64,000 nucleotides of DNA from Periplaneta americana (taxonomy: Eukaryota; Arthropoda; Insecta; Blattodea; Blattidae), in NCBI RefSeq assembly GCF_040183065.1, contig NC_091127.1, forward strand, positions 27,938,891 to 28,002,890, read 5' to 3'. The notes below the pieces were generated by a model. That model searched no databases. It was given only the letters and a program-made list of their open reading frames with translations, and was not told the DNA's origin. Positions 4,801 to 7,800 of this stretch are shown here, in pieces (within the stretch, counting starts at the first letter, position 1; each line of letters opens with the position of its first letter). Both the position numbers and the translations under genes were made by a program.

Positions 4801-7800
4801 CTACAGGGGAACAAAGTCAGACATGAAAAATTCCAGGTGTCAACAAAACACTTTTTTCTTTGCAGTCTTTCATTTCTTTCGTTACACGCTGTATCAGTCT
4901 TGTCGATACATTACAATACTTTTCTACCCTTGCTGTAGATTTCGTAAGAGAAAGGCTAAGACATTGTTCTTTTTCTTCATCACAGCATTTTATCACATTT
5001 GCAATAATATTTCTTTCTCTGCTATGGATTGTCAATTCTTGTTTCCTCTTTGTCGACATATTTACAATTAATAAACAAAAACTGCTATGTAAGCCTGAAC
5101 TACAACTATACAATAATAAAAACTCCACTGACTACATATTATCATCAACTATACTAACACCAGAAAAATGATAATTAAAGCTCTACTACTATATTACACA
5201 GACTTGCGGTTTAGGCTATTGAAGCCATTCGTCATGTTGAAACTAATAAAACACTACGAAGGCGACAGGCCCGCAGACACTCTCAAAGATACGTGCAGTA
5301 GATGTTTGTGAAACAGAATACTGCCGTGAACAGCGGGTTGCGCATGTGCGACTGTTTCCTCTCCACCCCGTCTAGACACTTTTGGCAACTTCTCCTGGCG
5401 TGACAACAGTACATCTCACTTGACGATATGTGTCAGAGAAAGAACAATTGTTTGTATACATCTGAAGTCTGACTAGTATAATATGTTGCTAGTCGGCAAT
5501 GTATGCAATGGAGGGGAAAAGGAACTGGCCACCCTACCCCATTATCTCCTTGCCTAGTTGCCTCATAAGTGGTACCTTGTCGGTGTCACTTGTGAGGTTT
5601 AGACCTGTCTTCGGACAGTTGACTAAACAAACAATTGAAAAGAAACTTTAAAGAGGCATCTTACTGACAATGTTACAGGATGGTAATGGTACTGTGACAG
5701 CGGGCAATGCTTCAACGTATGGTGATTGTGCTGCAGCTGTTGTTTTAATGGGTGATGATATAGTCAAAAAAAGAGGAGTCACTCCGCTCGCTAGGGTTGT
5801 GGCATTTTCGCAAGAAGGAGTGGAACCAGAGATTATGGGCATGGGACCTGTGCCAGCAGTGAAGTCTGTTGTAAGTAAACATGTACAGTATAAATAATTG
5901 TACAGATATTTAAGATTGTGTTATTGTTTTCTAATTCCTGTAGATATTAACTAAAATCTTTCTGAGATGCTATTGGTCTGGCAGAATTTATGGTGATGGA
6001 TGGGTGGAACGGAGAAAAATTCTCTCCGACACTGGGATTTTAACCCAGATTTTCAGCTCTACGTACTGACGCTCTATCCACTAAGCCACACCGGATTCCC
6101 ATTCCGATGCTGAACAAAATCCTCTCAGTTGAAGTTCCACCTCTTAGGTTCCCTCTAGTGGCCAACCCTCATGCACTGCGTCACAGATGTGTGACAGTGG
6201 CACAATATCCAGCACATTAACTGAGAGGATTCTGTCCGCCATTGGAATGGGAATCCGGTGTGGCTTTGTGGATAGAGCATCAGCATGTAGAGCTGAAAAC
6301 CCGGGTTCAAATCCTGGTTCCAGAGAGAATTTTTCTCCGTTCCACCCATCCTTCATCATATGCAGAATTTCTGCATGGAAATATCATATGTACATCGCAA
6401 TATATCTGGCAGAATTTAATTATATTTCTGAGATATGGGCATGTGAAAGGCAGAAATAATTTTTTCCTGGTAGGAGATGATGAATGGCAGGGTTAAATTT
6501 TGACATGGGTGAGAAACTATTGGATTTCTTTCTAGAATATTTACATTCAGTGATGATTTTATCATCTTTTACATGCTGTATATCGACAACATTGGACTTC
6601 CTTGTAGAGGAGGCCTGCTATAAATTTTTATTGTCTTAAAAAATTCAACATCCTTCATCAAGTTTGAACCACAAATCTCGATCCAAAAGGAAAAAAAAAA
6701 ATAATAATAATAAAACAATACAATAGACAGGAATTTAAAGAACAATGACACTGCACAATTAGCATTCTGCTTTCAATACTGCTATCGATAAAAGACTGAT
6801 GTTTTTCTTATATGCATATAGCACCACCATTTGATAGCTCGTGACCTATGCGGATTCAAGACGTGCGTGGGCTAAAATAGAGACAACACATTCACTCACA
6901 ACATCGCACAGAGTTTTAAGATTCGCAGGGTGGCAGGAGAAGTCATTGAATTTGACCTTGAGATGCATTTTCTGCTGACACAGAGTATAACTCACTGTCT
7001 GACTAAGCAATAAATGTCTTGCATATTAACTCTGTTTGAAAAGACTCATACAGAACATTTTCATAGATGAAATTGAATGTCAGTACAATATAATGTGAAT
7101 TTGAATTTATCAGTAACATAGAAATTATTTTTATTCAGTTTCGGTTGTTTCATTTTTCAGCTGAAGAAAGCTGGTTGGAGTAAGGACGATGTTGATTTGT
7201 TCGAGTTCAATGAAGCATTTGCATCTCAGTCTGTGGCAGTTTTAAGAGAACTTGACATTGATCCCAAGAAAGTAAATGTCCATGGAGGTGCAATTGCTTT
7301 GGGACATCCTATAGCAGCTTCAGGTAATCAACTATTGTTTGATTCGTGATACAGAGATGCCAACTATTACAGAAATCCCAACTGAAGTGTAGAAATGATT
7401 CTGTAGATAATTAATTTTTCTGAGGAAATCATTTTTCCTTTGATACAAACTACACAATTTCATTTTTTACTTTACTCTAAACATTGAACAATTATACTCA
7501 TTTAAACATGAATGAATCGAAAACACGGGAAAAGTAAATTAGTTGGAAGTGTGTATGTAAACATTTTCATTAGAAACTAAAAATGTATAGTAACTCCACT
7601 GTGAAATGCCTAAAGCCTTAGCAAATGAATAATTCTATATATGAAATGGTTAAACACACCTGTGAATCTGTCAGGAAGACAGACATGGGTTTAAATCTAA
7701 ATCCTACCAAGGCCATTTCTGTTAGTGTGATGTCCTGTATTGCCTTGAAGCTTTTGCATGATGCTGACTCTCATAGCAGAAGTCCCATTGAATTCGTCTA

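Follow-up and report, generated by a model that had tools for sequence, protein, structure and literature searches.

A 64,000-nucleotide (nt) stretch of the Periplaneta americana genome (assembly GCF_040183065.1, contig NC_091127.1, positions 27,938,891 to 28,002,890), hereafter the window, harbours at 5977-6418 a palindrome made of two copies of one tRNA-bearing repeat unit, U, which stand head to head. The insert opens with a 14-bp target-site duplication (TSD), TCTGGCAGAATTTA, at 5977-5990, which is followed on the minus strand by the left, inverted arm (5991-6220), running from about U328 to U99 and lacking the tail U330-388. The right arm (6219-6404, plus strand) overlaps the left by 2 nt and extends from U189 to the 3' end, including the tail at 6360-6404, so that the inward reach of the two arms is unequal (left down to U99, right from U189); in the palindrome search of the window the inverted arms at 5989-6135 and 6214-6360 were 86% complementary. 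The second copy of TCTGGCAGAATTTA, exact in all 14 bp on reading of the sequence, lies at 6405-6418. An earlier interpretation made without database searches (the sequence-only reading) had described a palindrome with a single 14-bp duplication around the pair, and the two exact copies do enclose both arms. Its further statement that the RNA polymerase III (pol III) promoters point outward was also borne out, as Rfam and ARAGORN both placed tRNA-Tyr-like cloverleafs on opposite strands: one in the left arm at 6024-6095 (minus strand, pol III direction leftward, Rfam tRNA 50.1 bits) and one in the right arm at 6254-6325 (plus strand, rightward, 47.5 bits), these window coordinates being converted from L001:1548-1619 and L001:1778-1849.

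A second locus, at 41572-42255, had been said to share this design. The plan is indeed identical, although the TSD is an imperfect one of 16 bp (41572-41587 and 42240-42255). Here the left inverted arm (41588-41882, minus strand) runs from about U324-328 to U1 and the right arm (41884-42239, plus strand) covers U30-U388, giving a nearly complete palindrome of U, with 92% complementarity between 41659-41837 and 41910-42088.

The unit itself was revealed by 39 genome matches to the right arm. U is a 388-nt repeat in which about 223 nt of upstream sequence precede the tRNA-like domain (U224-295), a run of five Ts comes just after it, and a 59-nt tail (U330-388) closes the unit; it contains many short palindromes. 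Rfam tRNA matches in U loci reached 60.1 bits, and ARAGORN called a tRNA-Tyr in 15 domains from 11 loci, with the anticodon gta in 14 and ata in one. By sequence match U thus has the tRNA-derived pol III promoter domain of a short interspersed element (SINE), with the tRNA starting at U224 and not at the element's 5' head. Since canonical tRNA-headed SINEs carry the tRNA at their 5' end, U does not belong to them in the strict sense; the earlier label of a tRNA-headed SINE was right about the tRNA-Tyr-like domain in both arms and wrong about its position, some 223 nt inside the unit. A comparison is offered by the Blattella germanica SINEs Sbg1-9, which, in the parts of the report drawn on here, have a tRNA domain with A and B boxes, carry a short-repeat tail in seven of nine cases and begin 11 bp ahead of the A box, whereas in U about 223 nt precede the tRNA; in the main text of that report the only mention of 'inverted' concerns the orientation of genomic copies (PMC9191728).

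Copies of U also occur as head-to-tail tandems joined at 388|1 (L055, L060, L069, L073-L076, L078, L084, L086 and L097). In six of the nine readable non-inverted tandems (L069, L074, L076, L084, L086 and L097) the 5' edge falls shortly past the tRNA domain, at U289-327, and in the other three it lies at U144 (L055), U62 (L073) and U83 (L075). We conjecture that edges after the tRNA could stem from a head-to-tail transcript cut at the tRNA 3' end. In L069 (236-299) about 20 repeats of (AAT)n stand between the tail and the next head of the tandem, as if the tail grew longer when copied.

Edges and junctions of the inserts

We mapped 81 distinct loci to U in the genome (3.23 Gb in 91 contigs; 16 of the contigs C1-C17 measure 138-229 Mb). 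Of these, 27 came from a palindrome query, 39 from the right arm, 12 from a tail pattern (one of them a repeat), two from random stretches and two from the window. The palindrome-query loci (L002-L028) are biased toward palindromes and supply a large share of the data on arms and edges. The tail-pattern loci form a blind set: of 433 exact tail matches, sites spaced through the first 100 listed were picked before any was read. The set requires an intact 34-mer, and all its sites lie on C1-C3. The repeat is L096, the same locus as L050; L050 was excluded from the edge counts and L096 from the arm counts. Arms were mapped by BLAST, which leaves edges uncertain by a few nt, and any overlap with the TSD (up to 12 nt) was subtracted from the left edge. 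The mapping did not include L029-L032, L034 and L036-L048, of which L029 and L032 carry another family.

Single-arm copies, whose predominance had been named in advance as the result that would speak against insertion as a pair, turned out to be in the minority among the copies sampled. An inverted 5' part was present in 10 of the 12 blind tail-anchored sites, the others being one direct tandem (L097) and one ambiguous case (L099), and in 26 of the 39 best right-arm matches. The inverted piece can be very short: 16 nt in L065 and, in L094 of the blind set, a 12-nt stub recognised by eye that starts at U329 directly after a 13-bp TSD. Among 20 random stretches of 10 kb, two had a retained U copy (L033 and L035), both inverted, with a 12-bp TSD at L035 and none found at L033.

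Across the mapped loci the usual plan opens with a TSD, continues with an inverted U that starts near U329 and runs inward and a direct U that runs up to U388, and closes with the TSD again. A TSD scoring at least 8 was found in 44 of 60 complete inverted inserts, and one scoring at least 10 in 36, against 5.7% and 1.0%, respectively, in a flank-swap null of 300 mismatched left and right flank pairs; among complete non-inverted inserts, 6 of 13 have a TSD. The TSDs of the 44 inverted inserts measure 8-20 bp (mean 13), and target sites resemble AAC|WA, with C at position -1 in 47% of 49. The pair was thus inserted as one unit in the manner of a retrotransposon, as the sequence-only reading had proposed. 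That two SINEs inserted independently of each other, in opposite orientation, and became neighbours by chance is hardly credible as a general account. It could draw on the 13 of 39 right-arm matches that have no inverted arm and on L066 and L072, where the arms lie 7-13 nt apart and a TSD was not found, and individual loci may still have arisen so; against it stand the flank-swap result, by which we rejected it, the single TSD around the pair in 44 of 60 inserts, the abutment of the arms and the lack of tail-to-tail pairs among the close neighbours listed. Neighbours within 1 kb, counted among the first 100 listed of 512 genome-wide exact matches to U305-326, comprised eight head-to-head, four direct and no tail-to-tail pairs.

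The outer edges of the TSD-bearing inserts are fixed, the left edge lying at U320-331 in 44 of 44 complete inverted ones, so that the two outer ends differ by the whole tail. The same place shows in the genome-wide matches: of the 512 exact matches to U305-326, 301 persist when the query is extended by 13 nt tRNA-ward and 102 when it is extended by 13 nt across U329, although the crossing extension has one more CpG than the control, which explains part of the drop and to that extent counts against a fixed internal start.

The inner junctions behave differently from one locus to the next. The 65 that could be read are scattered along U, and only seven locus pairs among them agree within 3 nt at both coordinates; the nearest match to the junction of the window locus at 5977-6418 is that of L003, yet the letters differ. 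Overlaps of at least 2 nt, indicative of microhomology, were present at 57% of junctions and at 16% of 5000 random joints, an excess that may be somewhat inflated, as BLAST overlaps are set here against an exact-match null. Of 42 simple loci, 29 have a left arm that extends further 5' than the right arm, and 13 show the reverse. These counts bear on self-priming (snap-back) on a single template, which has been put forward for Penelope elements (PMC3846280) and would account for the head-to-head polarity; the many short palindromes in U also speak for it. We consider it highly improbable for U and rejected it, because either arm can be the longer at its inner end, so that neither is always the fold-back copy, and the outer ends of TSD-bearing inserts differ by the whole tail.

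Likeness of the two arms

In 45 loci compared over U232-322, identity between a locus's own arms is 0.924, against 0.894 when right arms are shuffled among loci (p = 1e-4). Between loci, left arms resemble left arms (0.892) as closely as right arms resemble right arms (0.895) or left arms right arms (0.893), and there are accordingly no left or right lineages. Non-consensus variants common to both arms of a locus number 85 where 25.6 would be expected, and rare variants 12 where 1.2 would be expected.

In 39 loci the arms could be set against the two copies of the TSD as a clock. Mismatches amount to 252 of 3448 positions between the arms (7.3%, or 6.7% when CpG-like positions are set aside) and to 26 of 514 between the TSD copies (5.1%). 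Decay of the TSDs at the arm rate would predict 76-78% detected, 3.7-3.9% mismatch and about half perfect; we observed 44 of 60, 5.1% and 22 of 39. Since arm divergence is about that of the TSDs, the arms were nearly identical when inserted, and this, together with the closer likeness of a locus's own arms and the lack of arm lineages, indicates that the palindrome was built during insertion.

The sequence-only reading had instead supposed that the inverted dimer itself was copied, and this part of it was not supported. A palindrome transcribed and retrotransposed as a unit, its centre lost by template switching across the hairpin, would explain the single TSD around the pair and would suit the nearly complete second locus of the window (U328-1 / U30-388). 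An old dimer would, however, land with arms that had diverged beforehand, and we find no left or right lineages, arm divergence close to TSD divergence and junctions that differ between loci and fall throughout the unit. A copied dimer was rejected on these grounds, and we regard it as improbable.

The insertion reaction and its machinery

We consider it reasonably probable that U is a non-autonomous tRNA-bearing element whose palindromes are formed by the insertion reaction, with the machinery most likely of Penelope type and complementary DNA (cDNA) started at both cut ends. At 388 nt U has no room for an open reading frame (ORF) encoding a reverse transcriptase (RT) and a GIY-YIG endonuclease, and so could only be a non-autonomous relative of Penelope-like elements. 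In the reaction we envisage, the RNA of the element would be sense and often head-to-tail, and a staggered cut of the target would expose two 3' ends. One of these would prime reverse transcription at the 3' end of the RNA (U388) and the other at one constant internal site, near U329, of that RNA or of an identical one. The two antisense cDNAs would extend toward each other, halt at variable points and be joined head to head by a short microhomology, and repair of the stagger would leave a single TSD enclosing the pair. The wide overlap of the arms would need strand displacement on one RNA, or else two identical RNAs. Two separate cDNAs begun at U388 and U329 and joined by microhomology would account both for the two orders of arm length and for the tail difference; more broadly, the fixed start, the free inner junctions, the near-identical arms and the two arm-length orders are better explained by two cDNAs made from a single sense RNA than by a fold-back. 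The outward promoters, which had left it unclear how a full-length palindromic RNA could arise, may be less of a puzzle on this scheme, because the template can be a head-to-tail sense RNA and a palindromic RNA is unneeded. A more specific form of the proposal, for which we would put the chance somewhat below even, is that U is a SINE-like, tRNA-bearing parasite of Penelope, for which a cDNA start at both cut ends (at the RNA 3' end and at a fixed internal site) is normal and hairpins are the usual product.

The closest parallel in the literature is with Penelope inserts themselves. In the parts of the report used here, these have an inverted 5' pseudo-long terminal repeat (pLTR) head to head with a direct one, 37 bp shorter in one case, and form partial tandems; a 31-bp tail may be present, and TSDs measure 8-10 bp, one insert reportedly having none. 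For the head-to-head inserts the Discussion proposes self-priming on an antisense template, leaving their origin open (PMC3846280). Inserts of U share the inverted 5' repeat head to head and the one TSD around both (44 of 60), as well as partial head-to-tail tandems and a tail. They differ in that U is 388 nt long, contains a tRNA-like domain and shows neither an ORF nor a hammerhead match; the tail missing from its left arm is matched by analogy, the text drawn on leaving unstated which end of the inverted pLTR is absent (PMC3846280).

Hammerhead ribozymes are reported from some Penelope elements, and a type I hammerhead characterises the metazoan retrozymes, described in the same source as non-autonomous head-to-tail units of 150-450 bp without long terminal repeats (LTRs) and with TSDs when present; its main text nowhere uses the word 'inverted' (PMC7229834). 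U resembles these elements in being non-autonomous, head-to-tail, LTR-less and flanked by TSDs, and differs in the hammerhead, none having been found in U by cmscan (10 loci scanned to E 1 and two to E 10), so that we rejected a hammerhead or retrozyme identity. A GATGA...GAAA stretch in the tail that looks hammerhead-like by eye was likewise discarded, its core C being missing and cmscan negative.

As to a possible partner, 108 matches to the GIY-YIG domain were listed among the best 150 of 7668 candidates, in open frames of up to 811 amino acids (aa; C3:77268692). Six frames were also scanned of the 167 of at least 110 aa in the window and random loci; they matched 5'-nucleotidase, DUF659, RVT_1, RNase H, Lig_chan and DDE transposase, and no GIY-YIG domain appeared among them. 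Neighbours within 12 kb among the 108 listed were minus-plus pairs in 10 of 10 cases, with no tail-to-tail and no direct pairs; they lie 0.7-10 kb apart on C2, C4, C6, C9, C10, C11, C12 and C15. In Penelope elements the endonuclease is the C-terminal domain, and if this applies here the minus-plus pairs are head-to-head, which would suggest large Penelope inserts of that arrangement.

The main rival is twin priming driven by an ordinary long interspersed element (LINE) that uses both nicked ends, the SINE-like RNA offering a favoured internal priming site. Internal priming sites of L1 vary, and the arms as a rule overlap little. L1 5' inversions reportedly arise by twin priming, as set out by Ostertag and Kazazian in 2001. 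With such inserts U shares an inverted 5' part, one TSD and microhomology joints, and differs in that its internal start is fixed (U320-331 in the 44 of 44 TSD-bearing inserts) and its arms overlap widely. LINE-driven twin priming agrees with the microhomology joints and with a TSD length of about 13 bp, the AAC|WA target motif and the TAA-rich tail would suit a LINE, and L027, the sole non-overlapping case among simple TSD-bearing loci, looks like a textbook twin-primed insert. In the portions of the literature consulted, L1 5' inversions likewise accompany TSDs of 10-20 bp (PMC4245944), and twin-primed L1 inserts duplicated at the inner breakpoint exist (PMC12350158). The former of these studies, as far as its text was drawn on, found 5' inversions in human cells in L1 only, one insert excepted (PMC4245944), and most sampled copies of U are inverted, with a fixed internal start in TSD-bearing inserts and arms that usually overlap widely. 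We therefore think LINE-driven twin priming unlikely, though it deserves serious attention; LINE machinery, which the sequence-only reading had favoured, is possible, and Penelope-type machinery fits better.

Several observations weigh against a palindrome built at insertion by Penelope-type machinery. A TSD went undetected in 16 of 60 complete inverted inserts, and of the left edges of these 16 only three lie at U330-334, the other 13 falling elsewhere (U27-308 or U360-388), so that the fixed left edge (U320-334) holds overall for 47 of 60. Arm divergence hardly differs between loci with perfect (7.0%) and imperfect (7.7%) TSDs, and age is consequently poorly resolved for any one locus. Gene conversion from arm to arm could also have maintained the likeness of the arms. 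The window locus at 5977-6418 itself is awkward: its arm identity of 86% is the lowest among 45 loci, beside a perfect TSD, and its right arm ranks only 32nd of 45 as a match to its own left arm, L067 alone being worse (rank 36), so that each of its arms may derive from a different RNA. In classical twin priming every region of the RNA is copied once, yet most palindromes here duplicate a large stretch. The negative hammerhead search counts here too. No autonomous partner with the ends of U was identified, and no homology search for a partner tail was made. The GIY-YIG matches, finally, are identified by that domain alone and come from the best 150 of 7668 candidates.

Other palindromes and the meaning of the hairpins

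A second, different palindrome that bears a tRNA occupies L032:7097-7322; three pieces related to it stand at L029:2859-3400, and the family has a similar GAATTTTTCTCC trailer. Of 3990 candidates in a genome search 40 were scored: 14 of these align over the full palindrome, a further five lie 220-350 bp from an inverted partner, and the others are single-arm matches at 97-99%, for which matching to both strands arises only from the palindromic query; two pairs of places lie 356 bp apart in tandem. Since this second tRNA-bearing family has palindromic copies, the hairpin design is not confined to U.

The window holds further palindromes of another kind. One, at 59127-59493, has outer ends CAGTAGTGGCAAAAAAACCGG adjoining TA and a left arm with an inward-pointing B-box-like GGTTCGAATCC; we take it to resemble a Tc1/mariner-type miniature inverted-repeat transposable element (MITE). 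Another, at 62575-62811, has 89% arms and a sequence that recurs in the flank of L075, and is probably a MITE. Open frames in the window match RVT_1 (24848-26125, minus strand), the 5'-nucleotidase family (33709-35331, minus), DUF659 (36088-37386, plus) and RNase H (38748-39746, minus).

We found no palindromic, inverted or Penelope-dependent SINE in searches of the open PMC literature, subscription papers lying mostly outside it. Copying of a dimer is replaced by construction at insertion, and the hairpin design is more general than had been stated. If the Penelope link holds, the many copies of U would preserve a base-by-base record of how Penelope insertion proceeds, and the question of how head-to-head Penelope inserts arise could be tested by counting on a short, multi-copy element of like anatomy. 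A palindromic locus that is read through would yield RNA folding into a long hairpin, which the sequence-only reading supposed could feed small interfering RNA (siRNA), and such a genome would hold very many hairpins made by insertion, some of them in introns, as possible sources of double-stranded RNA.
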